A program made the translations under genes and the position numbers. Below are positions 1 to 64,000 of a stretch of 64,000 nucleotides of DNA, one piece after another. Each line of letters opens with the position of its first letter. The first letter of the stretch is position 1. The stretch covers positions 1-64,000 of the forward strand of contig NZ_MRCD01000043.1 in assembly GCF_001904745.1 (NCBI RefSeq). The letters run 5' to 3'. The notes below the pieces were generated by a model. The model had not been told where the DNA came from and made no database searches. It was given only the letters and a program-made list of their open reading frames with translations. This DNA comes from Calothrix sp. HK-06 (GTDB lineage Bacteria > Cyanobacteriota > Cyanobacteriia > Cyanobacteriales > Nostocaceae).

Positions 1-35
1 AAAACTTGATTTTTATTTTGATGTTTACTTAGAAG

Positions 36-143
36 ATGAATATTGAGGAATGGCGCCAATTTCTTAAAAGTTACAGTATTGAACTGCTTCAGGCTGAAGA
101 TTTATGGCTTGAAGTTCCAGATAAAGCTATACACGTAATATAA
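36..143 (+). pseudogene. Possible SMI1/KNR4-like N-terminal remnant
   Basis: A 35-codon reading frame begins at ATG 36 and stops at TAA 141-143. Its start, with MNIEEWRQFLKSYS followed by an acidic LEVPDK stretch, resembles from memory the first 30 residues of SMI1/KNR4 (immunity-type) proteins, which are normally 150 aa or longer. An in-frame stop lies directly upstream at 30-32, so it is not the tail of a longer gene. It is either a truncated remnant or a chance frame, and the assignment is weak. Confidence 0.25.
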
Positions 144-144
144 T

Positions 145-452
145 TTGATCTCACTTACTGTGAACAATTTTGTGGCACAACGCGCGTACGATAAAAGTTT
201 ATTGCACGCTCCCAAGTATATGTTATCACTTAGTATAAGAGTAAGTAATAATTTGATTCTTATTATCAAAGTCAGTCAAAGACTAATATATCCAGAAGCA
301 ACGTTGTATACATCTAGGATAAACAATAATATTACCTCTGTATCACGCCACTTGCTACAACGGGGGGAACCCCTGCAACGCAGTGGCTCCTCTGCGCTTC
401 TATGGTAAAAAATAATTACTACTCTTACATAGAGAAATTTTGAAGCATATCC
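145..452. other. Intergenic stretch with a short dispersed-repeat-like segment
   Basis: No convincing gene lies here. An 87-codon frame exists at 145-408, but its end is made of a G/C-rich segment at about 350-395 (CAACGGGGGGAACCCC then GCAACGCAGTGG). That segment resembles short multicopy intergenic elements of filamentous cyanobacteria which often create spurious frames. The only GATC in the first 4.9 kb is at 147-150. Confidence 0.5.
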
Positions 453-1289
453 ATGTCAAAACTAGAACAAATAAAAGAATACAAACAGCAACTACTCGTT
501 GACTTCAATTCTCGTACTAATTATGACAAAGGTAGATTTTACATACCAATTGCCAAGCGATTAATAGAAGTGGCAAACCTGCAAAACGCGCGCAAAATAT
601 TAGACATTGCCACGGGTAGGGGAATAGTAGCATTAGCAGCAGCAGAAAAAGCAGGTGCCCAATCTAAAGTAATTGGTATAGATATTTCTGCGGGAATGTT
701 AAGTAACGCTAAACAAAAACTAGCTGCTTCTGGTTTACAAAATGTAGAATTTATTAAAGCTGACGCAGAATTAATAGACTTTGAGCAAAACAGTTTTTAT
801 GTAATATTATGTTCTCTAGCAATTTGTTATCTAACTGATATCCCTACAGCTTTACATAAATGGCACGGTTTTCTCAAACCAGGTGGAAAACTTGTATTTA
901 ACGCTTGGACAAAAAATGCATTTACAACCTCTGCTCTATTTCGAGAAGTCACAGCTAGATATGGTATTAATGTACCCAACCCAAATGCACCATTAGGTAC
1001 ACCTCAAAAATGCCTGCAATTATTGTCAGCAGCAGGTTTTGAGAATAAAAATATTATAATCCAACAAGAGCAGTTTGGCTGGTACTTTACGCCTGACGCA
1101 AACAGCGCGCAACAAATATGGGAAGTTAATGTTAAAAACGTGTTTGGTTATCAAGTGCAGCAACTGGCGCCCGAAAAACTCCAAGAATGTTTTGCAGAAT
1201 ATATAAAAGAAGTCCAAGCATTACCAGTTACTGAACAAGGCACCTGGTGTAATGCATCAATATTTTTTGTAACAGCCGCAAAAATATAA
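453..1289 (+). CDS. SAM-dependent class I methyltransferase (copy 1)
   Basis: This 278-aa protein has the class I Rossmann methyltransferase signature. Motif I is LDIATGRGIVALAAA at about residues 46-60. The acidic residue of motif II is in VIGIDIS (about 74-80), motif III is around IKADAE, and the post-core motif is LKPGGKLVFNAW (about 140-151). It fits the UbiE/Methyltransf_11 group, which methylates small molecules; the substrate cannot be read from sequence. A clear paralogue follows 64 bp downstream on the same strand, so the pair probably arose by tandem duplication and may be co-transcribed. Motif I reads ATGRG, where copy 2 has AVGTG. Confidence 0.88.
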   Translation: MSKLEQIKEYKQQLLVDFNSRTNYDKGRFYIPIAKRLIEVANLQNARKILDIATGRGIVALAAAEKAGAQSKVIGIDISAGMLSNAKQKLAASGLQNVEFIKADAELIDFEQNSFYVILCSLAICYLTDIPTALHKWHGFLKPGGKLVFNAWTKNAFTTSALFREVTARYGINVPNPNAPLGTPQKCLQLLSAAGFENKNIIIQQEQFGWYFTPDANSAQQIWEVNVKNVFGYQVQQLAPEKLQECFAEYIKEVQALPVTEQGTWCNASIFFVTAAKI

Positions 1290-1353
1290 TAATACCAGGT
1301 TATGGAAAAAAATTTAACTTACTTTATTAATGCTATAAAAGTGTGATTTAAAT

Positions 1354-3896: not shown

Positions 3897-5495
3897 CTAC
3901 ATTCCCACTTGTGCAGGTGTGCGGTTGTTTCGCACTTCGTAGCCAGCAGATACTACTAGGGATTTCCCGGTCATTTCTGCTGGTTGGGGAATTTGCAAAA
4001 TCTCTAAAATTGTTGGCGCAATGTCCGCTAGCTTACCATCCGAGCGTAAGTTAACATCTGTACCGTGCCCAGGAATTTTAGCTCCTTCGCCTTCGACTAG
4101 TATGAGGGGTACTGGGTTTGTAGTGTGGGCAGTCCAAGGATTACCCGAATTATCTAACATATATTCTGCGTTGCCGTGGTCGGCTGTAATAATTGCCGTG
4201 CCACCTGCTTTTATTACACCCTCTAGCAGGCGCCCCACACAACGGTCTACTGTTTCAATAGCTTGCACTGTGGCTGGAATTTGACCCGTATGACCTACCA
4301 TATCCGGATTGGCATAATTTATTACCACTAAGGAGTAGATTTGCTTACTTATCGCAAAAGTCGCTACATCGGTGACGGCTTCGGCGGACATTTTAGGCGC
4401 CTGGTCATAAGTTGCCACCATTGGACTCGATACGAGTTCGCGGTCTTCACCTGGGTAGGGGTCTTCCAAACCACCGTTGAAGAAATAAGTTACATGAGCG
4501 TATTTTTCAGTTTCCGAAGTGCGGAACTGTTTTAAACCCCGGTTTGAGATTACTTCCCCCAAAATGTTACTAAGATTTTGTGGCTCAAATGCAACACTGA
4601 CTGGTAGTTCAGGGTCGTATTGAGTAAAAGTAACAAAGGACAGTGGCGCAATTAACTGTCTCTCAAAACTATTAAAATTAGGACTCACTAAAGCTTGAGT
4701 CAACTGCCGCGCGCGGTCAGGGCGGAAGTTAAAAAATATAACACCATCGCCAGCTTCAATTGCTCCTGGTGCTAACCGCACGGGAACAATAAACTCGTCG
4801 GTTATGTCGTCAGCATAAGAAGCTTTGACAGTTTCCATTGCCGAGAGTCCATTACCTTCACCATCAATAGTCATGACATCGTAGGCAAGTTTGACTCTAT
4901 CCCAACGACGATCCCTATCCATTGCGTAGTAACGACCGCTAATTGTCGCTATTTTACCAACGCCGATACGGTCTATGTAATTTTGAATTAGTCCTACTGC
5001 TTCTACACTCTCTTTAGGTGCAGTATCACGACCATCAGTGATAGCGTGAATACAAACTTGAGAAATACCTTGTGCTTTAGCTAAGTCAAGTAGTCCAAAC
5101 AGGTGGCTAATGTGGGAGTGTACACCTCCCTCAGAACAAAGCCCGACCATATGCAGTTTGCCGTTTCGACTCAGGACTTCCTGACAAATCTTTATTAACG
5201 CTGGATTTTTATTAATGGAACCGTCTTCTACTGCATCTGAAATGCGTACTAACTCTTGCGGTACCACTCGACCAGCGCCAATATTCAAATGGCCAACTTC
5301 TGAGTTACCCATTTGACCTTCTGGCAAACCGACGGCTTTTCCTGACGTGCGAATGAGCGTGTGCGGATATGCCGACCATAGGCTATTCATGACTGGAGTC
5401 TTAGCCTGTGCAATTGCATTTCCTTTCGTCTCTTCGCAGTAGCCCCATCCGTCTAAAATGACTAGCACCACGGGAGCAACAGGTGCCTTGGTCAT
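3897..5495 (-). CDS. gpmI: 2,3-bisphosphoglycerate-independent phosphoglycerate mutase
   Basis: This 532-aa enzyme interconverts 3- and 2-phosphoglycerate in glycolysis/gluconeogenesis, using two metal ions and a catalytic serine. Visible features are VVLVILDGWGY at the N terminus (metal ligand Asp), MGNSEVGHLNIGAGR (about residues 61-75, containing the phosphorylated Ser), AITDGRDTAPKES, and the C-terminal metal ligands in NYANPDMVGHTG and TADHGNAE. The length is normal for the family. The ATG is preceded by AAAGGG at a fitting distance. secG lies downstream on the same strand. Confidence 0.97.
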   Translation of the reverse strand: MTKAPVAPVVLVILDGWGYCEETKGNAIAQAKTPVMNSLWSAYPHTLIRTSGKAVGLPEGQMGNSEVGHLNIGAGRVVPQELVRISDAVEDGSINKNPALIKICQEVLSRNGKLHMVGLCSEGGVHSHISHLFGLLDLAKAQGISQVCIHAITDGRDTAPKESVEAVGLIQNYIDRIGVGKIATISGRYYAMDRDRRWDRVKLAYDVMTIDGEGNGLSAMETVKASYADDITDEFIVPVRLAPGAIEAGDGVIFFNFRPDRARQLTQALVSPNFNSFERQLIAPLSFVTFTQYDPELPVSVAFEPQNLSNILGEVISNRGLKQFRTSETEKYAHVTYFFNGGLEDPYPGEDRELVSSPMVATYDQAPKMSAEAVTDVATFAISKQIYSLVVINYANPDMVGHTGQIPATVQAIETVDRCVGRLLEGVIKAGGTAIITADHGNAEYMLDNSGNPWTAHTTNPVPLILVEGEGAKIPGHGTDVNLRSDGKLADIAPTILEILQIPQPAEMTGKSLVVSAGYEVRNNRTPAQVGM

Positions 5496-5925: not shown

Positions 5926-7620
5926 CTACTTTTTCTTTGCGGTAGATTTAGCGCTTTTAGCAGCTTTCTTCGCAGCTTTTTCTTTCTCAATATCAGCCAG
6001 ACGTGCGGCTTCTTTTTCTTCTTCAAGCTTGCTAAGATAGTAATGGTAATCACCCAAATAAACACGAAACTCACCATCGCGAATTTCGACGATTTTATTT
6101 GCTATCTGCGAAACAAAATAACGGTCGTGTGATACAACAATTACGCTACCATCATAATTTTGCAGCGCATCTTCAAGCATTTCCTTGGCAGGAATGTCTA
6201 AGTGGTTTGTTGGCTCATCTAGAATTAATAAATTCGCTGGACGTAGGAGCATCTTAGCTAATGCCAAGCGTGCCTTTTCACCACCGCTTAATGCTGATAC
6301 ATTTTTAAATACAGTGTCACCACTAAATAAAAATCGTCCTAAAATAGTACGAACTTCTTCATTTGTCCAGGTAGGCACTTCGTCATGGATAGTTTCCATA
6401 ACGCTTTTACTTAAATCAAGTGCTTCTGCTTGGTTCTGTTCAAAGTAACCAGGAAGAACATTATGGTCGCCAAGTTTTACAATACCTTCACTCGGCGCCT
6501 CCATTCCCATAATCAAACGTAGCAATGTAGACTTACCTGCACCATTGGGGGCAACAAAGGCAATTCTATCACCGCGCTCAACTATTAAACTGGCGCCTAA
6601 GAACAGAATTTTGTCGTCATACGTATGTGTCAACTCATCAATAATTACAACTTCGCGTCCGCTGCGAGGTGCAGGAGGAAACTGGAAGTGTAAAGTGCGT
6701 ACTGAACTTGTAGGCGCCTCAATACGTTCAATTTTATCAAGCAATTTTTCTCGGCTCTTCGCTTGAGTACTACGAGTTGCACTAGCGCGGAACTTTTCTA
6801 CAAACGCTTGTTGCTTTTCAAGTTCTTTTTGCTGACGTTCAAAAGCACTAAGCTGCGCTGACTGATTTTCAGCTTTTTGTTGCAGGTACGAAGAGTAATT
6901 ACCTAAATACGTAGAAGAAACACCACGTTCAGTTTCGACTATTTGAGTACACAAACGGTCAAGAAACTCCCGGTCATGCGATACAATCACCATCGGGGTA
7001 GTAAGTTTCTTGAGATAACCTTCTAACCATTCGATAGTTTCCAAATCTAAGTGGTTCGTAGGTTCGTCCAGCAGTAACAAATCAGGTTCTTGCAGCAAAA
7101 TCTTACCTAAACCCATTCGCATTTGCCACCCACCACTGAAAGCACTTACTAAACGCTCCCCATCTTCAATTTGAAAACCCATTTCTGGTAAAATCTTACC
7201 GATGCGCGCATCCAACCCGTAACCATCAAGTGCTTCAAACTGACGCTGTAACTTGTCTAATTTATTAATTAATTTATCCAGTTCTTCGGGTGTGGCACTT
7301 TCCATCTCGCGCGTCACTTGTGCCAACGCCAACTGTACTTCGTTTGCTTCTTTAAATACCGTCCAAAATTCTTCGTTAACAGTGTGTGATGGGTCTACCT
7401 CAAACTCTTGGTTGAGGTAAGCTATATGTAAACTCGAAGGACGAACAATTTCACCCGAAGTCGGCTCGACTTCACCTGTAATAATCTTAAGCTGGGTGGA
7501 CTTGCCGGCGCCGTTTACACCAACTAAACCAATTCTGTCGCCAGCTTTGACCTCCCAATTAACATCCTTGAGGACTTCACCAGTCGGGTAAATTTTACTG
7601 ATATGTTCGAGTCGTAGCAT
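5926..7620 (-). CDS. ABC-F family ATPase (ribosome-associated type)
   Basis: This 564-aa soluble protein has two ABC domains in tandem and no membrane segments, as in ABC-F translation factors and antibiotic-resistance proteins. Domain 1 has Walker A GVNGAGKST, signature FSGGWQMRMGL and Walker B LLLLDEPTNHLD. Domain 2 has APNGAGKST, LSGGEKARLAL and LLILDEPTNHLD. A charged linker near residues 250-300 matches the P-site tRNA-interaction motif region. The C terminus is a lysine-rich coiled coil. The ATG at 7620 begins the family sequence MLRLEHISKIY and has GGAG upstream, so the longer frame to 7689 was not used. The exact subfamily is uncertain. Confidence 0.92.
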   Translation of the reverse strand: MLRLEHISKIYPTGEVLKDVNWEVKAGDRIGLVGVNGAGKSTQLKIITGEVEPTSGEIVRPSSLHIAYLNQEFEVDPSHTVNEEFWTVFKEANEVQLALAQVTREMESATPEELDKLINKLDKLQRQFEALDGYGLDARIGKILPEMGFQIEDGERLVSAFSGGWQMRMGLGKILLQEPDLLLLDEPTNHLDLETIEWLEGYLKKLTTPMVIVSHDREFLDRLCTQIVETERGVSSTYLGNYSSYLQQKAENQSAQLSAFERQQKELEKQQAFVEKFRASATRSTQAKSREKLLDKIERIEAPTSSVRTLHFQFPPAPRSGREVVIIDELTHTYDDKILFLGASLIVERGDRIAFVAPNGAGKSTLLRLIMGMEAPSEGIVKLGDHNVLPGYFEQNQAEALDLSKSVMETIHDEVPTWTNEEVRTILGRFLFSGDTVFKNVSALSGGEKARLALAKMLLRPANLLILDEPTNHLDIPAKEMLEDALQNYDGSVIVVSHDRYFVSQIANKIVEIRDGEFRVYLGDYHYYLSKLEEEKEAARLADIEKEKAAKKAAKSAKSTAKKK

Positions 7621-7793
7621 CCAGTGTCTCCAAGGTAGGGAATGAGTAGGTACATGCGCGCGTAGCCGCATTGTGTCTAATCTTAACAAAAATTAATGCA
7701 AATGTAGAGACGTTACATGTAAGTCTCCACAAGATTTTGATATTTATTTCTACCACACAGACACAGGGTACACAGAAAAGAGGGTGACTTAAT

Positions 7794-7903
7794 ATCTTGC
7801 ACCATTCTCAACAAGCCAAAAGAAACCGGGCTTCTATACGATTAATTAATGTTTTTTAGCCAAAGTTTCCCAAGAAGCCCGGTTTCTAAACCAGGTGCAA
7901 GAT
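7794..7903. repeat. Nested inverted repeat with AGAAACCGGG arms
   Basis: Outer arms ATCTTGCACC (7794-7803) and GGTGCAAGAT (7894-7903) enclose inner arms AGAAACCGGGCTTCT (7821-7835) and AGAAGCCCGGTTTCT (7873-7887). All arms are perfect. It is the largest copy of a palindrome family found at least three more times in the window. It lies downstream of the 162-aa gene at 7976-8464 and upstream of the ABC-F gene. Confidence 0.85.
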
Positions 7904-7975
7904 GTGAGGTGAGAGGCTGTAGAGATAGGACGCCTGTTAAGAGTCTGAACCGTCTTTTTGTACTACCTGCTTTTT

Positions 7976-8464
7976 TTAAATATTTTCTTGACCGTCTCTG
8001 ACTTTTAGTAATTCGTCTTTAGATTTTCCTAAAATACGGGCGAGCGGCGCCATCAATGCGTCTTCTATTTTGTCACCTGCGTAGATATTGTTTAATTCGA
8101 CAGGTGAAACTTTAAAAGTGTCGCAAAATTTAGCAAATTCTTTATCACCTAAATCTAATTCTTGCTGTCTTTCACGTAGAAATCTTGCAATTGCAAATGT
8201 GCCTGACTTTGGAAGCTCACTGGTTTTTAGATATTTTTTGATTAGTTCTTTAACTTGACTAGCATCACCACCTGATTGCCTAATTAAATCGGTACAAGCT
8301 GTAGTCAATGCTTTTTTCAATAACTCGTCTTCATTTAACTGTTTGATTATCGTTTCCGAATATTCTTTTTTAAAAAATCCAGCTACGGCGCCTTTAAAAT
8401 AAACAGGCATGTAACTTTCATGTATACCTAATTGCCAATCGGTAGGTTCATTGCGTAAGGACAT
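7976..8464 (-). CDS. Conserved-looking protein of unknown function with HTH-like C terminus
   Basis: I do not recognise this 162-aa protein. It has no signal peptide or membrane segment. The last 50 residues (FAKFCDTFKVSPVELNNIYAG, then LMAPLARILGKSKDELL) have the spacing of a lambda-repressor-like helix-turn-helix with a trailing 'LGxSxDELL' helix, so DNA binding is possible. The N-terminal half is predicted alpha-helical and charged. The gene stands alone between long intergenic regions. Confidence 0.7.
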   Translation of the reverse strand: MSLRNEPTDWQLGIHESYMPVYFKGAVAGFFKKEYSETIIKQLNEDELLKKALTTACTDLIRQSGGDASQVKELIKKYLKTSELPKSGTFAIARFLRERQQELDLGDKEFAKFCDTFKVSPVELNNIYAGDKIEDALMAPLARILGKSKDELLKVRDGQENI

Positions 8465-8993
8465 GGCTGCACCTGTAAAATACGTATAAGACTTTACCTG
8501 TTATAGCCTCTCTTACAAAAAATGCCCCCTTGGCTCATAAGTAACTATTTATACTAAAAAATCTTCTGGACTCTAAGAAGTAAATTAACTCTTGCATGAA
8601 AACATAACTATATAGTCTACTCTGTTCTCCAGTATTTTGTCTTCTGCCCTTGTGGCTATACTTTATATAAAATGCGTCGATTCAAGTAGTTTGAAGAATC
8701 TACAAAAAGTATTAGTCTTTTTAGACGCGAAAAATCGTACTATATAACTAATTGCATCGTTTGAAGTTCGTAAATCGCTTAATATAAAGCCATAAGTATT
8801 TTTACTTGGCTAGTACCGCACTATACTACTACCTCTAGTACATGTAATATATAAACCTTGTACAGCGCCTAGATTCCGTAGCGCTTCTGAAACGTGAGTT
8901 TGTATAAGTATGCAAAGGTAATGGTATTAAAAGTGTGGAAGCTTGAATATATCTCCACAGTTACACGCAATATAAATCAATAGGATAAGACAA
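8465..8993. other. Long intergenic region upstream of the MFS transporter
   Basis: No coding frame is supported in this 529-bp stretch. It must contain two divergent promoters. A hairpin (AGCC/GGCT plus AAGTA/TACTT) is visible at about 8788-8811. No GGCGCC is present, although one occurs about every 650 bp on average elsewhere. A non-coding RNA cannot be excluded. Confidence 0.45.
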
Positions 8994-10292
8994 TTGGAAG
9001 TACTTCTACGCTTGGATACCAAGATACGTAATTACATGCTGATTTTGTTCGCAGCAGGTTTACTATTTTGGTCGAGTATTGGAGCGTTGTTATCAACGTT
9101 ACCGCTTTATATTGAGGATTTAGGCGGTTCTAAACAGCAAGTTGGCATTGTCATGGGCAGCTTTGCTATTGGGTTGTTAATTTTTCGTCCTCAGTTAGGA
9201 GAACTAGCAGACCGACGTAACCGTAAAATTGTTTTAATTATTGGTGCCTTGGTTGCAGGTATTGCACCATTGGGTTATCAAGTATTTACATCAATACCTG
9301 GACTTATTGCACTACGCGCGTTTCATGGAATTAGTATTGCAGCTTTTACTACAGCATACGCAGCACTAGTTTCCGATATAGCTCCGGCAGAAAATCGCGG
9401 TGAAGTTTTGGGCTACATGACTTTGACTGGGGCAACTGGTTTAGCACTTGGCCCAGCAATTGGTACCTATATTCAAGAAAATGCGAGTTACACATTATTA
9501 TTTAATACTACTGCTATTTTAGGTTTACTCTCGCTTTTATTTGTACTGCCAATTGAAAGCTTTCCTGTATCCCAAGATGTGAGTGAAGATAATCGCGCCG
9601 ACAGTATTTGGCAAATTTACAAAAGTCCGAGGGTGCGGGTTCCAGCACTAACTATGTTATTAATTGGGTTAGCAGTAGGTACGTTAAATACTTTTATTCC
9701 ATTATTTATTAAATCTATACATGTTGACTTCGATTGCGGTTTGTTTTATACAATCGCTGCGGTGTCAAGTTTAGTTTCGCGATTTTTTACTGGCAGTGGT
9801 AGTGACCGAATTGGTAGGGGTGTATTTGTAACTCTTGGTTTAATTGCTTATACGCTTTCGATGTTACTACTATGGCAAGCAAACAACGATTTGTCATTTC
9901 TTATGTCGGCAATACTTGAAGGCGCCGGGGGTGGCACATTCCTTTCGACAATGGATGTAGTTATAGCCGACCGCTCATTACCCCAAGAGCGCGGACGAAT
10001 TTTTGCTCTATGTGTAGTGGGGTTTGACTTGGGTATTGCAATTGCTGGCCCGCTTGGAGGTTCGATTGCCGAACAAGTCGGTTATCATAATATGTTTGGT
10101 ATTGCAGGCGCCTTAACTTTCTCAGGAGTTATAATTTTCTTGGCTTTATCAAACAAAACTCTTATCAACTCATTGCAGTTTGCTATTGGACGTGGTGTTG
10201 ATGACTTTGCGTATAGTACAGTTGTAATTCCGGTGCCGGATTTTGACGATAGCGAAAATTATCCCGCACTATCTGGTATTACTGCTGAGTAG
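8994..10292 (+). CDS. Major facilitator superfamily transporter
   Basis: This 432-aa protein has about 12 hydrophobic helices over nearly its whole length. The MFS loop 2-3 motif is seen as GELADRRNRKI (about residues 69-79). A second copy of the type GSGSDRIGRG follows in the second half. It resembles drug/sugar efflux permeases; the substrate is unknown. The TTG start at 8994 is preceded by TAGGA at 8-9 nt, while the first internal ATG (9036) lacks a ribosome-binding site. The gene is convergent with the restriction endonuclease gene and separated from it by a large inverted repeat. Confidence 0.9.
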   Translation: MEVLLRLDTKIRNYMLILFAAGLLFWSSIGALLSTLPLYIEDLGGSKQQVGIVMGSFAIGLLIFRPQLGELADRRNRKIVLIIGALVAGIAPLGYQVFTSIPGLIALRAFHGISIAAFTTAYAALVSDIAPAENRGEVLGYMTLTGATGLALGPAIGTYIQENASYTLLFNTTAILGLLSLLFVLPIESFPVSQDVSEDNRADSIWQIYKSPRVRVPALTMLLIGLAVGTLNTFIPLFIKSIHVDFDCGLFYTIAAVSSLVSRFFTGSGSDRIGRGVFVTLGLIAYTLSMLLLWQANNDLSFLMSAILEGAGGGTFLSTMDVVIADRSLPQERGRIFALCVVGFDLGIAIAGPLGGSIAEQVGYHNMFGIAGALTFSGVIIFLALSNKTLINSLQFAIGRGVDDFAYSTVVIPVPDFDDSENYPALSGITAE

Positions 10293-10305
10293 TTGTTAAA
10301 GAAAA

Positions 10306-10410
10306 TTAGCAACGGATGATAAACGTATGAAACGGATAGTTGATTTTAAAGAATTAGACTTGTTTTGTAACGAGTAACTCATCCGTTACATCCGTTCAAT
10401 CCGTTGCTAA
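10306..10410. terminator. Long inverted repeat between convergent genes
   Basis: TTAGCAACGGAT (10306-10317) and ATCCGTTGCTAA (10399-10410) are perfect 12-bp arms. Extra copies of ACGGAT/ATCCGT lie between them. The right arm overlaps the stop codon of the endonuclease gene. It could stop transcription from both sides, or it may be a repeat element. Confidence 0.5.
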
Positions 10411-11333
10411 AGCTGCTGTTTAATAATTTCAGCGAGTAGCCCACTAGAAGCCATATTCAAATTTAATGTATAGTCAATATAATTAAAAGTTTCTTCCAAA
10501 GGTTTTAAAGTACTCTTCCAACCCAAACCATCAGTAATCCAAATAAATTTGTGATTTTGCGCCGTTAAAAAATCATACAAACCCTTATACTCACCTGCGG
10601 TGGCTTTCAACTTAGAACCACCTCCACCATAAAAATTGACTTCAATTAAATAAATTAACTCTTGATTATTAATTGCAAAATCAAATCTTCTGCTTGATTT
10701 ATCTACTTCAACGATAATATCCCATTCAATCAAAATCTTCTCAGCAGTAGCTTGTTTAATATATGTAAAATTACTCGCGTTACAAATAGACTTTACTAAC
10801 TCTTCAACGATAATTTCCATCGTATCTCCAGCACGATTTTTTCTCCCGTTACTATCTAGTCCCACCTCTATTCCTAATACATAATCTGGAATACTCTTAA
10901 TAGTACGGTTTTCAAATAGTTCCAGCACACCAGTTTGTCTGACAAATTCTACTGCTGCATCAATATTTTCTGGAAATAAAAGACTTTGACTGCTAAAATT
11001 AAACCCTTTATATTGAAAATGTCCTTCTGTAAAGCTAGTTATAATTCTAAAATTTTTTGCTCGACAAGCTATTAAAATTGGAATTGCGCTGTAAATGCCT
11101 GGATAAGTTTGTAATAATTCTCTAAATTCTTGCTCTATATTACTTTTTCCAATTAAATAATTTAAAGTATTCAAATGTATTTCGACGCTTTTAAAATTTG
11201 ATAGGACTTTTTGCCAATTGACAAAATAGTCCCATATTGTGATAGAGTCAGTCAAAGTATTTTTCAAATGCTTAAATACATCTTTGGTAGCAGCACTTCC
11301 CAAAAAATCATGAAATACCTGACTATTTTTCAT
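10407..11333 (-). CDS. DpnII-family type II restriction endonuclease
   Basis: This 308-aa protein matches the DpnII/MboI-type endonuclease family, which cleaves unmethylated GATC. The C-terminal part has the family core. WDIIVEVDKSSRRFDFAI is followed by LIYLIEVNFYGGGGSKLKAT, which supplies the D...ExN/K catalytic region, and then AGEYKGLYDFL and FIWITDGLGWKST. The N-terminal half is helical. It lies 102 bp downstream of a Dam-type methylase on the same strand, making a complete restriction-modification pair. GATC specificity is inferred from family and from the strong GATC depletion in this window. Neither gene contains a GATC. Confidence 0.9.
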   Translation of the reverse strand: MKNSQVFHDFLGSAATKDVFKHLKNTLTDSITIWDYFVNWQKVLSNFKSVEIHLNTLNYLIGKSNIEQEFRELLQTYPGIYSAIPILIACRAKNFRIITSFTEGHFQYKGFNFSSQSLLFPENIDAAVEFVRQTGVLELFENRTIKSIPDYVLGIEVGLDSNGRKNRAGDTMEIIVEELVKSICNASNFTYIKQATAEKILIEWDIIVEVDKSSRRFDFAINNQELIYLIEVNFYGGGGSKLKATAGEYKGLYDFLTAQNHKFIWITDGLGWKSTLKPLEETFNYIDYTLNLNMASSGLLAEIIKQQL

Positions 11334-11355
11334 ACTTTGCTTGTTTATTATAGAT

Positions 11356-11435
11356 AAGGTGCGTGACGCTAAATAAGGTGCGTGACGCTATTAGACTATA
11401 ATTTGATTACGTTACTTGTCGTAGCGTCACGCACC
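11356..11435. repeat. Direct and inverted GGTGCGTGACGC repeats
   Basis: AAGGTGCGTGACGCTA occurs twice in direct orientation (11356-11371 and 11375-11390). It occurs once inverted as TAGCGTCACGCACC (11422-11435), ending next to the methylase stop codon. The arrangement can form alternative hairpins in the methylase-endonuclease mRNA. It resembles dispersed GTGCGT-type intergenic repeats of cyanobacteria. Confidence 0.75.
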
Positions 11436-12479
11436 CTACTCATAATTCATAATTAAGAGTTCGTTAATTTGACCGCGTTTGGATGCGTTACAGTTAATTT
11501 TACGCGCAGCTTTTACTCGCTCAATTCTATAGGCATTATAAGCATCTTCAAAGAAGTTATCGTTAATATTTTCGTTTTTAGGGTCTGAATTACTTAATAA
11601 GAGCTTGGCGCCGAAACCATCCAACTCAGCGAAAAAATCCCTCAACCTTAACTGCTCACTATCATGCCATATATTTTGAGAATAACCAGTAAAATTAGCA
11701 GTACTGCTTATAGGTCGGTAAGGAGGGTCAAAATAGACAAAAGTCTTATCATCAACATAATCTTTGCACTTTGTAAAATCTCCTAACTCAATACAAGTTT
11801 TTTGCAGCACTAAAGAAATTGCCTTCAAATTATCTACATTACAAATTAAAGGCTTCTTATATTTGCCACAAGGAACATTGAACTCACCTCTAGAATTAAC
11901 TCTAAACAAGCCATTAAAACAAGTACGGTTCAAAAAAATAATCTGAGCCGCACGCTCTACCCAATTACTACTAAATACATTAAAATCAATACTTCTTCGC
12001 TTTGAATTAAATAATTGCCGCACATAATAAAAATACTGGCTTTTTTCAATATCTGACATAGACCAATACTTAGATTGAATCTTTAATAAAGCATCAATCA
12101 ATGCATACACATCAAGTTTAATAGTTTTATAAGCAAGTATCAATTCAGGATTAACATCATAAATAAAAAACTCATCAATGCTCGACTGATAACCAGAAGA
12201 AGCAAGATAGAAAAACATTGCCCCTCCTCCCACAAACGGCTCAACATACCTTTTGATTGAACCATTTAATAAGCTTGGCGGCAAATATCTACTTATTTGT
12301 TCTAGAAGCTGACCCTTCCCTCCTGCCCATTTCAAAAATGGTTTTGCTGGAGCCTGGTTTGCTGTATAAACATTGTAATTAGAAGGCGCCTCAAATACAC
12401 CTCGCTTCGCCACACCTTTTTGCAAAGCTAAATGAGTTCCTACTTTCACATCATAGTTGCTACGTACTATATAAGCCAT
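11436..12479 (-). CDS. Dam-type DNA adenine-N6 methyltransferase (DpnM-like)
   Basis: This 347-aa enzyme transfers methyl from SAM to adenine N6 and should protect GATC from the adjacent DpnII-like nuclease. Alpha-group order is visible: KPFLKWAGGKGQLLEQI (about residues 47-63), the SAM-binding VEPFVGGGAMFFYL (about 87-100), the catalytic DPPY (in VYFDPPYRP), and SNSDP near the end. The first 45 residues before the methylase core are longer than in typical Dam proteins and may be a lineage-specific extension. The promoter contains a GATC and a LexA-box-like palindrome. Confidence 0.92.
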   Translation of the reverse strand: MAYIVRSNYDVKVGTHLALQKGVAKRGVFEAPSNYNVYTANQAPAKPFLKWAGGKGQLLEQISRYLPPSLLNGSIKRYVEPFVGGGAMFFYLASSGYQSSIDEFFIYDVNPELILAYKTIKLDVYALIDALLKIQSKYWSMSDIEKSQYFYYVRQLFNSKRRSIDFNVFSSNWVERAAQIIFLNRTCFNGLFRVNSRGEFNVPCGKYKKPLICNVDNLKAISLVLQKTCIELGDFTKCKDYVDDKTFVYFDPPYRPISSTANFTGYSQNIWHDSEQLRLRDFFAELDGFGAKLLLSNSDPKNENINDNFFEDAYNAYRIERVKAARKINCNASKRGQINELLIMNYE

Positions 12480-12487
12480 TAATTTAT

Positions 12488-12515
12488 GATCAATCTAGTT
12501 TAGTACTATAGTACT
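12488..12515 (-). promoter_or_regulatory. Methylase promoter region: GATC site plus LexA-box-like palindrome
   Basis: A GATC at 12488-12491 lies 9-12 nt before the methylase ATG, one of only 13 in the window. At 12502-12515 is AGTACTATAGTACT, a perfect 14-bp palindrome. As I recall it, the published cyanobacterial LexA consensus is RGTACNNNDGTWCB, which this matches at every position. Methylation and SOS control are inferences. Confidence 0.5.
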
Positions 12516-12675
12516 TTAAAAAATCGAAAAAAGAATACTTGTTCTACTTTACTCCAAAGAATAAAATTGCAAAACAAAACAGTGTAATATCTTACCCGTT
12601 TTTACCACTAGCCAGCGCAAATTCAGGCAATACAGATATCTTATTGTCAAAAAAATAACTGACTGTAATTAGTAG

Positions 12676-12703
12676 GTTGGGTGGAGCGTAAGCGTAACCC
12701 AAC
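12676..12703. repeat. GTTGGGT hairpin repeat
   Basis: GTTGGGT and ACCCAAC enclose GGAGCGTAAGCGTA. Related units occur at 45179-45251 (as a large inverted repeat) and as a single arm near 61573-61603. It is a dispersed cyanobacterial intergenic element, here located downstream of the first XRE gene. Confidence 0.7.
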
Positions 12704-12751
12704 ATAAAGCCCCAAATTACAACAAACAAATATTATCCGTAAGGCGCCGAC

Positions 12752-13114
12752 TCAACTAGCTTTAATCTCCGAACCCGACAACTCAATCGAAGAAGCAAAT
12801 CTATCCATAACAACACGACCAATAACCGCCACATCAGACAATGGCATCACCTTAATTTGCTTAACAATCTGATTCAAATCTGAGGAATTAGATTGCGGCT
12901 TAATCCCCAAATAATTTAAAAGCTCCTCGATTGTATAACCTGCTCTATCAGCAATATTCGCCAAGTTAAGAACATCGGGAATTGACTCGCCTTTTTCCCA
13001 CAACTGCACCGTTGTATAAGATACATCAAGTAATTTTGCAAACGCTCTTTGGCTCATGGAATCACGAGCCGTTTTTACTACTTCACCCAACTTCTTCCGC
13101 GCTTCTAAATCCAC
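12752..13114 (-). CDS. XRE-family transcriptional regulator (paralogue a)
   Basis: This 120-aa protein has a lambda-repressor-type helix-turn-helix at about residues 8-65 (SMSQRAFAKLLDVSYTTVQL, WEKGESIPD, AGYTIEELLNYL). A conserved tail follows (LNQIVKQIKVMPLSDVAVIG) and it ends in KAS. The start is GTG at 13114 within ACAGCAGTG, the same context as the two paralogues. It is nearest to paralogue c. It stands directly downstream of paralogue b on the same strand and has no divergent partner of its own, so it may be an orphaned copy of the cassette. Confidence 0.85.
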   Translation of the reverse strand: MDLEARKKLGEVVKTARDSMSQRAFAKLLDVSYTTVQLWEKGESIPDVLNLANIADRAGYTIEELLNYLGIKPQSNSSDLNQIVKQIKVMPLSDVAVIGRVVMDRFASSIELSGSEIKAS

Positions 13115-13232
13115 TGCTGTAATATTCTTCTAACCGTACTGACCACGATATTTTAGCCTGGAAAACCTAAGCATTAAACTTGTATGTCAATAATTCCGGT
13201 AATTGTAGAGTACACAGCGATTATTTATACCG

Positions 13233-13592
13233 CTAACTAGCTTTTGGCTCCTCCAAAGATTCAACAGCCGCAGCCAACCGACTGGCGCCTGCTTGAACAA
13301 TCTGAGCCACTTGAGACAGAGGCATATGATTGATTTGCCTCAAAATCAAACTCAAATCAGAAGCTTCTTGTACAGGTTTGCCTTCCAAACAGCCAAGCAA
13401 CTCTTCGAGTGTATAACCTGCTCTAGGTGCAATTTTTGCTAGATACTCTGTATCAGGCACATTCACGCCCTTTTCCCACAACTGTACAGCAGTCGCAGAA
13501 ACACCCAAAAGTTTGCCAAAGGCTCTTTGACTCATAGAACCACGAGCTTGCTTAATGATTTCAATCAGTTTTTCCTTGCTTTCGATATTCAC
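13233..13592 (-). CDS. XRE-family transcriptional regulator (paralogue b)
   Basis: This 119-aa paralogue has the helix-turn-helix GSMSQRAFGKLLGVSATAVQ followed by LWEKGVNVPDTEYLAKIAPR (about residues 17-56). The shared tail is LILRQINHMPLSQVAQIV and the C terminus is KAS. It starts at GTG 13592 in the context ACAGCAGTG. It is divergent from the unknown gene at 13772 across a 179-bp promoter region with strong two-fold symmetry. This fits a regulator controlling itself and its neighbour. It is the most diverged of the three copies. Confidence 0.85.
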   Translation of the reverse strand: MNIESKEKLIEIIKQARGSMSQRAFGKLLGVSATAVQLWEKGVNVPDTEYLAKIAPRAGYTLEELLGCLEGKPVQEASDLSLILRQINHMPLSQVAQIVQAGASRLAAAVESLEEPKAS

Positions 13593-13660
13593 TGCTGTGG
13601 TTACTAGGAGAGCATTTACAAATTTAGTTTAGTAATCAATTACAAAAAGTTTCGTTGTAT

Positions 13661-13708
13661 ATTGACAACTTTCCTTGGAAGATGTATCTTACAATTTAGG
13701 TTGTCAAT
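13661..13708. promoter_or_regulatory. Symmetric divergent promoter/operator of cassette 1
   Basis: ATTGACAAC (13661-13669) and GTTGTCAAT (13700-13708) form perfect outer arms, and AAGAT/ATCTT (13679-13690) form inner arms. Both share one centre at 13684.5. On the plus strand this gives TTGACA-17 nt-TATCTT. On the minus strand it gives TTGACA-17 nt-CATCTT. So two face-to-face promoters overlap. The dyad is also a candidate operator for the adjacent XRE protein. Confidence 0.6.
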
Positions 13709-13771
13709 GTATAACTACTAATGTAGTTTTCTGCTGGATATTATCTGGATATTATATAGATGGGGTGCATC

Positions 13772-14239
13772 ATGCGTAAGCGAGTAAGGCAAAGTTACTA
13801 TAAGGCTCCAAACAAAAAGGTTCACAGCTTAATCGCCGCTAACAAAATTACACCACATGTTTGGCGGCTGAGCGAAGCCAATTTAATCGAATCGCTCAAA
13901 GCTCAAGGTTATAACGTAAAGAAAATCAAGAAAATCTCTTACCTAAAGCACCAAGTAAGCATTTCGTACTGGGACACAAAAGGTGGAGTTTGCAGTGGGT
14001 TTTTCAGCTATCGAATTTTTGCACGCTGGCAACAGGCCGTTGAAAGATTAGTTTACAACTGTGGAAGTGTAAGGCAGTTACAACAATTGAGTGAATTGAT
14101 TGAGTATGAATATACTCATTACCCTTATCCCTTTGAAATACAAGAAGCAATCAATAACACAATAGAGACTTGCAACTCTGAGCTAACTGCGCTTGAAAGT
14201 TACAGAAAAACTGTCCAACGTGAAGTTGCTTGTGTTTGA
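13772..14239 (+). CDS. Unknown 155-aa protein, cassette partner 1
   Basis: I do not recognise this family. The paralogue at 15114 is colinear: a basic N terminus, then LIAANKITPHVWRL (about residues 22-35), then KKIKKISYLKHQVSISYW, the core GVCSGFFSYRIFARWQQAVE, and YEYTHYPYPFEIQEAINNTI near the end. There is no signal peptide or membrane helix. The ATG at 13772 was chosen over the one four codons upstream because both copies share GGTGCATCATG there. Divergence from an XRE gene in both copies suggests that the pair is a functional unit. Function is unknown. Confidence 0.8.
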   Translation: MRKRVRQSYYKAPNKKVHSLIAANKITPHVWRLSEANLIESLKAQGYNVKKIKKISYLKHQVSISYWDTKGGVCSGFFSYRIFARWQQAVERLVYNCGSVRQLQQLSELIEYEYTHYPYPFEIQEAINNTIETCNSELTALESYRKTVQREVACV

Positions 14240-14282
14240 TGAAAACGCAATGTATATGTTTATGTTTTAATACAAAATAAAA

Positions 14283-14485
14283 ATGCTAAAAACATTCTGG
14301 GCTACTGTTCGACAAGGAAAAATAGAATTATTGGAATCAGCAGAACTTCCCGAAGGGGCAAAAGTGTTAGTAACAGTTTACCTAATGATGAAACTGATTT
14401 CTGGCGCCAAACTAGCCAAGTCTCACTTGATACAGTATGGGATAGCATTGAGGATGATGTGTATGCCCAGCTACTCGATAAATAG
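14283..14485 (+). pseudogene. Frameshifted small antitoxin-like gene
   Basis: The first frame gives MLKTFWATVRQGKIELLESA then LPEGAKVLVTVY, which resembles the N terminus of short cyanobacterial AbrB/AF2212-like (DUF104-type) antitoxins. At about 14377-14381 the likeness continues in the next frame as PNDETDFWRQTSQVSLDTVW and ends DDVYAQLLDK before TAG at 14483-14485. A single missing T in the TTT run (14377-14379) explains the shift. The unshifted frame runs on to 14615 into the antisense of the next gene and is not plausible. No toxin gene follows. Confidence 0.6.
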
Positions 14486-14528
14486 CATTATCTGGTTTAT
14501 CACTCCAAAATTTGAGAAACCTTATACG

Positions 14529-14891
14529 CTAACTAGCCTTTACTTCTTGACCCAAAGTTTGAGCCGCATCTGCAAATCTTTCAGCAGTAGCTTTGGCAAT
14601 TACCGCTACCTCTGATAAAGGCATTACTTTTATTTGTTTAATTATTTGGTTGACATCAGAAGTCTCAGATTGCGGTTTAACACCAAGATAGTTCAAAAGT
14701 TCTTCAATTGTGTAACCTGCTCTATCAGCAATGTTGGCTAAATTCTCAATATCTGGTACTGATTCCCCTTTTTCCCACGCCTGCACCGTAGTATACGAAA
14801 CACCCAAAAGCGTTGCAAAAGCCCGTTGGCTCATAGTATCACGAGCCTTTTTTGCTATTTCACCAAGTTTCTTTCTAGCTTCTGGATTCAC
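14529..14891 (-). CDS. XRE-family transcriptional regulator (paralogue c)
   Basis: This 120-aa protein is very close to paralogue a: TMSQRAFATLLGVSYTTVQA, WEKGESVPD, AGYTIEELLNYLGVKPQ and a tail ending EVKAS. The start is placed at GTG 14891 (context AAAGCAGTG), aligning exactly with the paralogues. A longer frame to the ATG at 14981 would add 30 unrelated residues and run through the TTGACA/TGTCAA promoter region. It is divergent from the unknown gene at 15114, repeating the arrangement of cassette 1. Confidence 0.85.
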   Translation of the reverse strand: MNPEARKKLGEIAKKARDTMSQRAFATLLGVSYTTVQAWEKGESVPDIENLANIADRAGYTIEELLNYLGVKPQSETSDVNQIIKQIKVMPLSEVAVIAKATAERFADAAQTLGQEVKAS

Positions 14892-14958
14892 TGCTTTAGG
14901 TTTGTTGCAAGCGCAATAATTAAGTTCTAGCGTTTTTTTACAGATTGTAAATTTTTTC

Positions 14959-15004
14959 TTGACAAAGGTAGCTAAAATCAATATTGTTAGTTTAAACCTG
15001 TCAA
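14959..15004. promoter_or_regulatory. Divergent promoter/operator of cassette 2
   Basis: TTGACA at 14959-14964 and TGTCAA at 14999-15004 span 46 bp, exactly as in cassette 1 (13662-13707). TATTGT follows the plus-strand TTGACA after 17 nt. The central CAATATTG (14979-14986) is palindromic but 1 bp off the arm centre. Conservation of geometry without much conservation of the intervening bases points to a functional constraint. Confidence 0.55.
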
Positions 15005-15113
15005 TGACTGCCTGTAGCCTGCTAAAGATGAAAATTTAATAGACAAACTTATTCTAGCCTGGAAAATCTTCTTTATTGAAGCCCTGCGGTCAATTTAAAT
15101 TGGATGGTGCATC

Positions 15114-15572
15114 ATGACTCGCAATCTACGCAACCGAAAGTGCCGCTCACGTCGAAGCCTAATCTCGGCAAACAAAATTACGCCTCGTCTATGGCGCCTG
15201 CGTGAAGCTGAAATAATAGAAGCGCTCAACGCGCAAGGCTACGATGCTCTTAAAATCAAGAAAATTTCTTACCTCAACCACCAAATATCTATTTCGTATT
15301 GGGATAACAATGGCGGAGTGTGTAGTGGGTTTTTTAGCTATCGAATATTCGCACGCTGGCAATATGCCGTGCAAAAGCTAGTTTACAACTGTGGAAGTAC
15401 AACAGAGTTAAAGCGTTTGAGTTTGCTAATTAAGTACGAATATAATCACTATCCCTATCCTCTGGAAATACAAGAAGCTATCGATAATACAATCGATACT
15501 TGTACTTTTGAGTTAACCGCCATTGAAAGTGACAAACAAACCGTTCAGTATGAGGTTGTTGGTGTTGCTTAA
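15114..15572 (+). CDS. Unknown 152-aa protein, cassette partner 2
   Basis: This is a paralogue of the protein at 13772. Shared blocks are RSLISANKITPRLWRL near the N terminus, IKKISYLNHQISISYW, GVCSGFFSYRIFARWQYAVQ and YNHYPYPLEIQEAIDNTI. The N-terminal 20 residues are very basic (MTRNLRNRKCRSRRS), which would suit nucleic-acid or acidic-surface contact. The start ATG lies in the shared context GGTGCATCATG. It is divergent from XRE paralogue c. No named domain is recognised and the function is unknown. Confidence 0.8.
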   Translation: MTRNLRNRKCRSRRSLISANKITPRLWRLREAEIIEALNAQGYDALKIKKISYLNHQISISYWDNNGGVCSGFFSYRIFARWQYAVQKLVYNCGSTTELKRLSLLIKYEYNHYPYPLEIQEAIDNTIDTCTFELTAIESDKQTVQYEVVGVA

Positions 15573-15733
15573 ACTTTTAGTAATCAAATGAGATGAAGGC
15601 GCCTGTGTGTTTTCGTTGCAGCGCACGTATCCTTACACCAAACAAGTCATAATCTCCATTGACTCTTGAAAGGCAGTACGTAAAATAATACGTATAAGCA
15701 AGATTGTGGCTCAAACTATGGTAAGAGGGAGCG

Positions 15734-16189: not shown

Positions 16190-16290
16190 TATTGTCTCAA
16201 CCTCAAAGTCAAAACGTCGCTTCAGTATTTGATATGTCATAGTCCAATTTTGCTATACTAAGAAAATTAACTTAAATTAATTACAATAAT

Positions 16291-18151: not shown

Positions 18152-18153
18152 GC

Positions 18154-20238: not shown

Positions 20239-20259
20239 AAAATGCTCATTCTATGAGGA

Positions 20260-62091: not shown

Positions 62092-62094
62092 GTA

Positions 62095-63228
62095 ATGTTC
62101 ATTCCAAAATTGCCCTTTTCAAATTTAGGCGCCGATATCATATTAGGTACACGTGAAGAATTTGCAGTACCTCTGGCGCCTAGTGCAGTATCTATGTTCG
62201 CTCCGCGCGGCGCCTGTTTAACATCAGAAAGTGGTTCTTTATGGGTTGCGGATACAGGACACCATCGGTTATTAGGATGGCGAAACTTACCAACTCAAGA
62301 TAGTCAACCTGCTGACTGGGTAATTGGACAACCTGATTTTTTTCACGAAGGACAAAATGCTAAAGGTATACCAGGAAACACAACACTAAGTGTACCGACA
62401 GGTATTTGTGTTTGTGGTGGTGGTTTAGCTGTAGCGGATGCTTGGAACCATCGCGTTTTAATTTGGAAACAAATTCCAGAAGATAGCAATGTGCCGGCAG
62501 ATATTGTACTAGGGCAAAATAATTTTACTGATAATCGACCAAATAGAGGTGAGCAAGAAGCTTACGCAAATACTCTTAATTGGTGTTACGGTGTTTTTTA
62601 TCATCAAGGAAAGCTGTTTGTTGCTGATACTGGTAATCGTCGGGTATTGGTTTGGAATGAATTGCCAAGTCAGAATGGTCAACCTGCTGATTTAGTCTTG
62701 GGACAACCAGATATGTTTTCTCGGAATGAGAATGGTGGTGGGACTGCATCCGCTTCGAGTATGCGCTGGTGCCATGATATTACATTTTGGCAAGAAAATT
62801 TAGTTGTCACTGATGCTGGTAATAACCGCATTATGATTTGGGAAGGAATGCCAACTGAAAATAATACTCCCTGTCGCGTAGTTTTAGGACAAAAAAGCTT
62901 TGATTTTGTTGAGTTAAATCAAGGTGTTTATTTTCCTAATGCTAGTAGTCTCAGTATGCCATATGGTGTTGATACTTTTGGTGATTGGTTAATTGTGGCT
63001 GATACTGCTAATTCGCGATTGTTGGGATGGAAGAATTTGACATCATGTGGGGTAGATGCAGATGGATTAATGGGACAAAAGGATTTTAAAAGTAAGTCTG
63101 AAAATGGTAACTTTGGATTACCAAAGCGAAACAGTGTTAATTGGTGTTATGGCATTAATATATGTGGTGATACTGCTGTGATTTCTGATTCTGGTAATAA
63201 TAGAATTTTATTATGGCGCCTTAATTAA
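62095..63228 (+). CDS. NHL-repeat beta-propeller protein of the extended hyp operon
   Basis: This 377-aa protein consists of NHL-type repeats, about six blades, of the form LWVADTGHHRLLGW, LAVADAWNHRVLIW, LFVADTGNRRVLVW, LVVTDAGNNRIMIW, LIVADTANSRLLGW and AVISDSGNNRILLW. The repeat spacing is 45-60 residues. No signal peptide is visible, so it is probably cytoplasmic. It starts 3 bp after the NifU-like gene and lies upstream of hypF, as in the Nostoc extended hyp operon; its function in maturation is not established. Confidence 0.9.
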   Translation: MFIPKLPFSNLGADIILGTREEFAVPLAPSAVSMFAPRGACLTSESGSLWVADTGHHRLLGWRNLPTQDSQPADWVIGQPDFFHEGQNAKGIPGNTTLSVPTGICVCGGGLAVADAWNHRVLIWKQIPEDSNVPADIVLGQNNFTDNRPNRGEQEAYANTLNWCYGVFYHQGKLFVADTGNRRVLVWNELPSQNGQPADLVLGQPDMFSRNENGGGTASASSMRWCHDITFWQENLVVTDAGNNRIMIWEGMPTENNTPCRVVLGQKSFDFVELNQGVYFPNASSLSMPYGVDTFGDWLIVADTANSRLLGWKNLTSCGVDADGLMGQKDFKSKSENGNFGLPKRNSVNWCYGINICGDTAVISDSGNNRILLWRLN

Positions 63229-63229
63229 T

Positions 63230-63302
63230 CCCCCAACCCCCCTTAATAAGGGGGGCTAAGAGGTGCTTCTTGTTCCCCCCTTAATAAGGGGGGTTAGGGG
63301 GG
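63230..63302. repeat. G/C-run palindromic repeats upstream of hypF
   Basis: Two copies of CCCCCCTTAATAAGGGGGG (63237-63255 and 63275-63293), themselves palindromes, are flanked by CCCCCAA and TTAGGGGGG. Palindromes of this type are common in cyanobacterial intergenic DNA. It lies 62 bp before the hypF start, within the putative operon. Confidence 0.85.
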
Positions 63303-63364
63303 ATTTATAACGAACCGTAAAGGACACAAAGGAAAGAAAGAAGAGAAGGAATATCTTATAAATT

Positions 63365-64000
63365 ATGTATGAAGAAATACGAGTACGGGGTACAGTTCAA
63401 GGAGTAGGATTTCGTCCTACAGTTTATCGTATTGCCGTAGCGAATGGGTTACGCGGCGAAGTTTATAACGACGGTGAAGGGGTTGTAATTCGCGCATTCG
63501 GATATGAAGAATCTTTAGAAAAATTTGTTCGCCAATTACAGCAAGAATGCCCGACCTTGGCAAAAATAAATGAAATAACACGCACACAACATATATCTGA
63601 GGGTGAATTTAACTTTGATGATTTTATAATTTCTAAAAGTATTAATAATGTAGTTAATACCGAAATTACACCCGATACTGCCACCTGTGTACAATGTCAA
63701 AGCGAAATCTTCGATCCTCAAAGTCGCTGGTTTCGTTATCCTTTTACCAATTGTACCCATTGTGGACCACGCCTAAGCATTATTCGTTCTATACCTTATG
63801 ACCGCAATAATACCAGCATGGCAAGCTTTGTGATGTGTCCAGAATGCAGGGAGTCATACAACGATATTACAAATCGTCGCTTTCATGCTCAACCAACGGC
63901 TTGTCATGTTTGTGGTCCGAAGGCATGGTTAGAACGTGCTGATGGCAAACCTTTTACAGCTTCTATGTTCTCAATGCTAGATGAAGTTGATGCCGTTTGC
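63365..64000 (+). CDS. hypF: Carbamoyltransferase HypF (partial, 3' end outside window)
   Basis: The frame from ATG 63365 is open to the window edge (212 codons of about 770). The N-terminal acylphosphatase domain is seen in VRGTVQGVGFRPTVYRIAVA, and the zinc-finger pairs in CVQCQSEIFDPQSRWFRYPF TNCTHCGPR and CPECRESYNDITNRRFHAQP TACHVCGPK. HypF makes the cyano ligand for the NiFe-hydrogenase centre from carbamoyl phosphate. Context suggests uptake or bidirectional hydrogenase maturation in this organism. Confidence 0.96.
   Translation, partial: MYEEIRVRGTVQGVGFRPTVYRIAVANGLRGEVYNDGEGVVIRAFGYEESLEKFVRQLQQECPTLAKINEITRTQHISEGEFNFDDFIISKSINNVVNTEITPDTATCVQCQSEIFDPQSRWFRYPFTNCTHCGPRLSIIRSIPYDRNNTSMASFVMCPECRESYNDITNRRFHAQPTACHVCGPKAWLERADGKPFTASMFSMLDEVDAVC

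Follow-up and report, generated by a model that had tools for sequence, protein, structure and literature searches.

The first 64,000 nucleotides of contig NZ_MRCD01000043.1 of Calothrix sp. HK-06, hereafter the window (the whole stretch of DNA that was analysed), contain the tetranucleotide GATC 10 to 11 times less often than expected and carry the adjacent genes of a DpnII-family nuclease and a Dam-type methylase. Very probably, GATC is avoided because the genome has long carried this resident restriction-modification system, which is of type II and of the DpnII/MboI kind. This explanation builds on direct observations: the tetranucleotide itself is depleted, the nuclease is intact and maintained by selection, the locus occupies the same position in seven genomes, and GATC sites turn over fast. 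As a trait of the genus, GATC depletion is already in print (Elhai 2015; PMC4390886).

The mechanism would comprise several connected steps. By homology, and by the depletion itself, the nuclease is predicted to cleave GATC that lacks methylation, and the methylase next to it to methylate the same sequence. GATC sites that newly arise, or that escape methylation following replication, would then occasionally be cut, which would act as the selective force. Each GATC site would thereby carry a small cost leading to its loss or non-fixation, and over the age of the genus about nine in ten GATC sites would have been removed.

GATC depletion in the window and in the genome

A direct count yielded 13 GATC in the window, in agreement with a first-pass annotation made from the sequence alone, whose count and 13 coordinates were all exact. 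The expected number varies with the null model: base composition predicts 230 sites (18-fold depletion), 100 dinucleotide-preserving shuffles give 144 (standard deviation 10; 11-fold) and an order-2 Markov model gives 137, the fairer figure being a depletion of 10- to 11-fold. The "about 15-fold" of the annotation falls between these nulls (10- to 18-fold). GATC ranks lowest of the 16 palindromic tetramers of the window. The two restriction genes had been described as free of GATC, and none occurs within 10407-12479; one site, at 12488, is found shortly before the methylase start. Four of the 13 sites fall within 2 kb, and a test for clustering gave a p of 0.06. GGCGCC is present in 100 copies, compared with 4 expected from base composition.

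1-64000, no strand: low-GATC stretch with 13 GATC, about 10- to 11-fold below expectation; GCGATCGC absent (0 copies); 100 copies of GGCGCC

The source genome (G000) comprises 9.99 Mb in 243 contigs, and the genome-wide extent of the depletion was gauged from samples together with a proxy motif. In 20 further stretches, two of which (L090 and L102) consist of N throughout, 103 GATC were found in 315,849 unmasked bases, corresponding to an observed/expected ratio of 0.13-0.14. The normal density elsewhere in the genome that, according to the annotation, would have spoken against avoidance was therefore not encountered. Over the whole genome, WWGATCWW occurs 602 times and WWCTAGWW, its reverse and a control matched in composition only, 3,932 times (ratio 0.153).

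Sequence contexts and codon positions were analysed in 380 kb (window plus sampled stretches), using mechanically called open reading frames of at least 100 aa. All ten NGATCN contexts are depleted, at 0.01-0.20 of expectation. Compared with synonymous shuffles that keep the proteins and the overall codon usage, GATC reaches 0.14, 0.01 and 0.10 in the three codon frames and 0.11 in total, with GTAC at 1.06, CTAG at 0.98, TCGA at 1.00, AGCT at 1.04 and TGCA at 0.90; CATG (0.78) and GGCC (0.21) are low too. Outside the called reading frames, GATC stands at 0.16 of expectation. Since all contexts, all frames and the intergenic DNA are affected, the target is the tetranucleotide in DNA and neither a codon or protein effect nor a hexamer. 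Hence, a 6-bp specificity (GGATCC, AGATCT, TGATCA or CGATCG) is ruled out by the ten depleted contexts, and the sequence counts speak against the hexamer that the annotation had named as the finding that would overturn its reading. The pattern is as expected of restriction-site avoidance, in which the site is depleted genome-wide and in every context. Across 25 stretches of the genus, regional GATC was unrelated to GGCGCC (rho 0.02).

GGCC follows GATC among the palindromic tetramers of the window, with 15 copies versus 82-127 expected, and in another genome, G009 (L136-L141), it does not occur in 120 kb; together these counts suggest a separate, GGCC-specific history.

The restriction-modification locus

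Both genes of the system are encoded on the minus strand.

10407-11333, minus strand: intact type II restriction endonuclease of the DpnII family, 308 aa (Pfam PF04556, alignments, dN/dS, predicted fold)
11436-12479, minus strand: Dam/M.DpnII-like N6-adenine DNA methyltransferase, 347 aa (PF02086; TIGR00571, 272 bits)

The nuclease matches PF04556 with 317 bits (cut-off 23) over residues 20-300 of 308. Four residues, D218, E231, N233 and K241, are invariant across 32 aligned homologues, two more loci having been excluded because of a stop codon, and as conserved residues of acidic or catalytic type they are candidates for the catalytic site. A sequence search with the nuclease matched no solved structure. 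Its AlphaFold model (mean pLDDT 88.5, pTM 0.63) found the restriction enzymes BstEII and BsoBI as top PDB matches, at low TM scores of 0.36-0.40. The ratio of nonsynonymous to synonymous substitutions (dN/dS) is 0.06-0.15 in all 21 pairs of genomes within the genus, at dS values of up to 0.78, which argues for purifying selection and for a system that has been kept for long. For the methylase, the best solved relative is M.DpnII (2dpm), and its N-terminal 35-45 residues are alignable with congeners only; it is also the sole strong match to TIGR00571 in the source genome (next match 139 bits). A DpnII-family nuclease with an undamaged frame and conserved residues thus adjoins a Dam-type methylase, as in systems of the DpnII/MboI type, and the DpnII-like endonuclease and Dam-type methylase recognised in the first pass are indeed present and conserved.

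The DpnII operon of Streptococcus pneumoniae also encodes the single-strand methylase DpnA. The locus described here resembles this operon in that a PF04556 nuclease adjoins a DpnM-like methylase, but it differs in having a single methylase and an intergene gap of 102 bp, which leaves no room for DpnA. In those of the examined cyanobacterial loci in which both genes were found, methylase and nuclease are no more than about 350 bp apart. The extra methylase of the DpnII system is noted by Rusinov et al. (2015; PMC4687349).

Upstream of the methylase, further small proteins are encoded.

12752-13114 and 13233-13592, minus strand: two small XRE-type helix-turn-helix proteins, named by eye

Homologues of these proteins lie upstream of the methylase in five of six congeners, whereas the neighbourhoods of DpnII genes in other genera yielded none; the two proteins may thus be unrelated to the restriction system. 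In all, three paralogous XRE-type proteins lie near the restriction genes (12752-14981), with homologues in five of six congeners. Elsewhere in the window, a tandem repeat with a 42-bp unit occupies 39952-40234 (6.7 copies, 96% matches).

Shared locus and site turnover in the genus

Among the genomes searched, seven represent the genus: the source genome and six congeners, namely Calothrix PCC 7103 (G115), Dulcicalothrix desertica PCC 7102 (G127), Calothrix PCC 7716 (G138), Calothrix NIES-4105 (G101) and two metagenome-assembled genomes (G030, G076). The DpnII nuclease is present in all seven, and the restriction-gene pair is flanked by the same genes in 6/6 congeners, whose neighbourhoods were each aligned with the window over 32 to 55 kb. 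PCC 7103, with the same syntenic locus, has a GATC observed/expected ratio of 0.16 in a 140,000-base sample. The 13 sites of the window compare with the congeners as follows (no strand applies).

147-150: residual GATC, unaligned in all six congener stretches
4910-4913: residual GATC, present in 5/6 congeners
12488-12491: GATC, 9 bp before the start codon of the methylase, in 0/6 congeners
17665-17668: residual GATC, unaligned in all six congener stretches
24669-24672: residual GATC, private to the source genome; GGTC in 6/6 congeners
33732-33735: residual GATC, found also in G101; four congeners read GGTC and one has a gap
34245-34248: residual GATC, present in 6/6 congeners
35200-35203: residual GATC, in 0/6 congeners
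35393-35396: residual GATC, common to G127 and G076; GGTC in four
43194-43197: residual GATC, in 0/6 congeners
43825-43828: residual GATC, aligned in G030 only, which has GATC
45958-45961: residual GATC; four congeners read GATT and one AATA, the sixth being unaligned
63713-63716: residual GATC; four congeners read GACC, the other two being unaligned

The idea that the methylase is controlled through the site at 12488 was rejected, as the position lacks GATC in all six congeners.

Turnover was analysed over 34,230 aligned columns in five ingroup genomes, with G101 as outgroup and G076 left out. Ancestral GATC was lost in the ingroup at four of five positions, compared with 185 of 731 positions when seven control tetramers are pooled (p 0.017). 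Moreover, only 1 of 19 GATC positions is common to all five ingroup genomes, as against 91/153 for GTAC (Fisher 6e-6) and 54/117 for CTAG (6e-4). GATC sites are short-lived in the genus, as expected from a present-day force, and their gains and losses among congeners are mostly exchanges with GGTC or GACC.

One region of PCC 7103 (L135:8672-12456), which appears by eye to cover genes for a sensor kinase and for an ABC substrate-binding protein, contains 21 GATC in 3.8 kb and is possibly a recent acquisition whose GATC are still unpurged.

DpnII and GATC depletion across the family

For the family comparison, 145 genomes were drawn from a larger group and characterised by their WWGATCWW/WWCTAGWW ratio. 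DpnII matches numbered 18 at E 0.001, of which 17 exceeded the cut-off; the remaining genome, G125 (21.4 bits, partial profile), was scored as negative and has PDDEXK_11 (PF20472), a small PD-(D/E)XK nuclease. The median ratio is 0.22 in genomes with DpnII (n=17), 0.53 in those with PDDEXK_11 (n=90) and 0.76 in those with neither (n=38), and DpnII genomes differ from the rest with p 2e-6, or 0.009 after genus averaging. The comparison of relatives proposed in the first pass therefore bore out a stronger depletion in DpnII genomes but not a depletion specific to them.

Several observations weigh against DpnII as the cause. Genus averaging was the only phylogenetic correction in the family tests. 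The two lowest ratios of all 145 genomes belong to G022 (65/4,050; 0.016) and G083 (217/3,754; 0.058), which have neither DpnII nor an intact PDDEXK_11 match, and G130, G104, G036 and G012 reach 0.11-0.17 without DpnII, all of them with PDDEXK_11 and G012 additionally with a MutH/Sau3AI-like gene. Conversely, the DpnII genome G039 stands at 0.73, and genus g45 shows the reverse order, with 0.40-0.53 in three DpnII genomes and 0.06-0.15 in three without. The association of depletion with DpnII is significant; six DpnII-negative genomes are nonetheless about equally or more depleted, and DpnII is neither necessary nor sufficient for GATC depletion. Within the genus, the turnover test is based on small numbers (5 ancestral and 19 total sites), and GGCC (3/14) and CCGG (18/52) are likewise little shared across the ingroup.

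Other nucleases were also surveyed. The DpnI-like nuclease PF06044 matched none of the 145 genomes, but the control genomes were silent too. A search for MutH/Sau3AI gave one convincing case, G012, and a weak, broken match in G117; in G012 (L057:6502-7967; genome ratio 0.17), an N6/N4-type methylase precedes the MutH/Sau3AI-like nuclease. In G022, there was no match to DpnII, MutH/Sau3AI or PDDEXK_11, and its dmtA locus holds no convincing PDDEXK_11 remnant; 200 kb of this genome (L108-L117) contain 12 GATC, 7 of them inside HIP1. The nuclease of G140 (L012) has lysine at the position of E231, where all the remaining 16 of the 17 sequences aligned carry glutamate, and this enzyme may be inactive; no lysine-type change was seen at that position in G045 or G118.

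dmtA, PDDEXK_11 and alternative explanations

According to Elhai (PMC4390886), the GATC methylase gene dmtA is present in almost all cyanobacteria outside Group C1, and the abstract of that paper terms the methylase an orphan. In 30/30 loci examined here, the top-scoring of 90 matching genomes, PDDEXK_11 is encoded beside dmtA on the opposite strand. In G104 and G130, the two are separated by one gene.

L025:985-1488, opposite to dmtA: PDDEXK_11 (PF20472)
L049:6120-6617, opposite to dmtA: PDDEXK_11 (PF20472)
L021:2294-2770, opposite to dmtA: PDDEXK_11 (PF20472)

Conservation of its D78...E94-x-K96 motif reaches 95% or more across 31 sequences. PDDEXK_11 occurs in 0/17 genomes whose DpnII match exceeds the cut-off and in 90/128 others (Fisher 1e-8), the 90 including some fragments and stop-carrying copies, and G083 retains two short fragments near dmtA (20 and 21 residues, E 1.5e-7). 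The window methylase is like the dmtA product of most Nostocaceae in belonging to the TIGR00571 family, with presumably the same GATC target; dmtA, by contrast, lies near rbfA and, in the examined loci, beside PDDEXK_11, whereas the window methylase lies beside DpnII. A survey of TIGR00571 in 11 genomes found the DpnII-linked methylase to be the only strong match in the DpnII-bearing G000, G045, G118 and G140; in the remaining seven, a strong match lies at another place. PF20472 and PDDEXK_11 were not mentioned in the literature searched. Elhai predicted GATC nucleases in 10/97 genomes, tied to two branches of the methylase tree (PMC4390886), and PDDEXK_11 may be among them.

These findings give rise to a broader proposal, which we regard as about evenly poised between right and wrong: the dmtA of heterocystous cyanobacteria and PDDEXK_11 would form an ancestral GATC restriction-modification system in most genomes of the family that was repeatedly replaced by DpnII, so that GATC avoidance would reflect successive owners of one specificity, the HIP1 loss of Calothrix being a separate event. 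Part of the depletion may be older than DpnII, and the medians of 0.53 and 0.76 in genomes without it may be the mark of an earlier dmtA and PDDEXK_11 system that gave way to DpnII.

It is unlikely that the depletion was mainly inherited from such an older system, with DpnII as a replacement that merely maintains it. This alternative draws on the pairing of PDDEXK_11 with dmtA in all examined loci and its absence from DpnII genomes, on the stronger depletion of PDDEXK_11 genomes relative to the class with neither nuclease (p 6e-5; by genus p 0.07), on the fragments retained in the very depleted G083 and on the four DpnII genomes whose DpnII-linked methylase is the only strong TIGR00571 match. 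Yet PDDEXK_11 genomes are half depleted on median and DpnII genomes further (p 0.018 at genus level), the fast turnover within the genus argues that a force acts at present, and PDDEXK_11 is itself a candidate GATC nuclease.

Improbable, too, is a mutational or repair process tied to GATC methylation in place of restriction, such as the methyl-dependent mismatch-repair ratchet that Elhai advanced for HIP sequences. The exchanges of GATC with GGTC and GACC among congeners are changes at the adenine or its partner, as such a process would produce, and G022 and G083, with the lowest ratios, possess dmtA and no known GATC nuclease. However, synonymous transitions at third codon positions would yield the same exchanges, and genomes with neither nuclease reach ratios of up to 1.36, although those particular genomes may or may not carry dmtA. 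Base composition, codon usage or protein composition can be dismissed with near certainty: the expectation does fall from 230 to 144 once dinucleotides are counted, but GATC stays at 0.11 relative to shuffles in which all proteins and the codon usage are preserved, and at 0.16 in intergenic DNA.

The long residence of the DpnII/MboI-type system thus remains the best explanation, as proposed by the first-pass annotation for GATC, given a depletion that is genome-wide and acts at the tetranucleotide level and a nuclease under purifying selection.

HIP1 loss and the rise of GGCGCC

HIP1 densities were calculated from rounded genome sizes. Within the genus, the seven genomes range from 4 to 23 HIP1 per Mb and from 7,475 to 20,380 GGCGCC, the source genome containing 88 and 15,449 copies, respectively. 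Among the other 138 genomes, GGCGCC reaches 1,053 at most, and the alternative-HIP trait, i.e. near absence of HIP1 with GGCGCC in the thousands, is found in 7/7 genomes of the genus and in 0/138 others. The annotation had suggested that GATC avoidance could also explain the absence of HIP1 and the rise of GGCGCC. As a sufficient cause this does not hold, as 10 of the 17 DpnII genomes, all outside the genus, keep HIP1 at 329-969 per Mb with no more than 25 GGCGCC. Two of them, G068 (0.079) and G019 (0.121), avoid GATC at least as strongly as the source genome (0.153), and genomes of this kind have about 900 HIP1 per Mb. Among genomes of other genera, those with and without DpnII show no difference in HIP1 density (medians 860 vs 734 per Mb, p 0.50). 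Hence, GATC avoidance alone is not enough for HIP1 loss.

Loss of a conserved 5-methylcytosine methylase (candidate DmtC) was considered as another cause and found insufficient. At E 1e-60, the candidate has no match in 7/7 genomes of the genus, and it is also unmatched in seven that keep HIP1 (G020, G032, G069, G085, G093, G096, G097); in many genomes, no more than 11 candidates were scored, and a pairwise comparison for the source genome likewise gave no close homologue.

Relation to earlier work and implications

For PCC 7103, Elhai (PMC4390886) reported GATC at 16% of expectation, a GATC nuclease, the lowest HIP1 of the group and a high over-representation of GGCGCC. In that account, the GATC nuclease was proposed to lower HIP1, together with a CGATCG nuclease, a change in the CGATCG methylase and a second GrCGyC methylase. 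It treats one such genome and 19 kb of a second strain, as opposed to the 7/7 genomes of the genus considered here, in which HIP1 loss is moreover decoupled from DpnII by the ten other genomes. Rusinov et al. (PMC4687349) described site avoidance in about half of orthodox type II cases, and more for long-lived systems, with traces that persist once a system has been lost. The present case is similar, in that the site of a long-resident system is depleted and avoidance also occurs in relatives without the system; their Kr measure (cut-off 0.78) differs from the Markov observed/expected ratio used here, and the word cyanobacteria is absent from their main text.

Beyond the published trait, the comparison separates HIP1 loss from GATC avoidance and renders avoidance as a cause of HIP1 loss, whether on its own or, following Elhai, as one of several events, at best an incomplete account. 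With respect to GATC itself, Calothrix offers a clean example of a resident restriction enzyme that has apparently reshaped a 10-Mb genome. For the family at large, the pairing of dmtA with PDDEXK_11 would, if true, turn a supposed orphan methylase into part of a testable restriction system.

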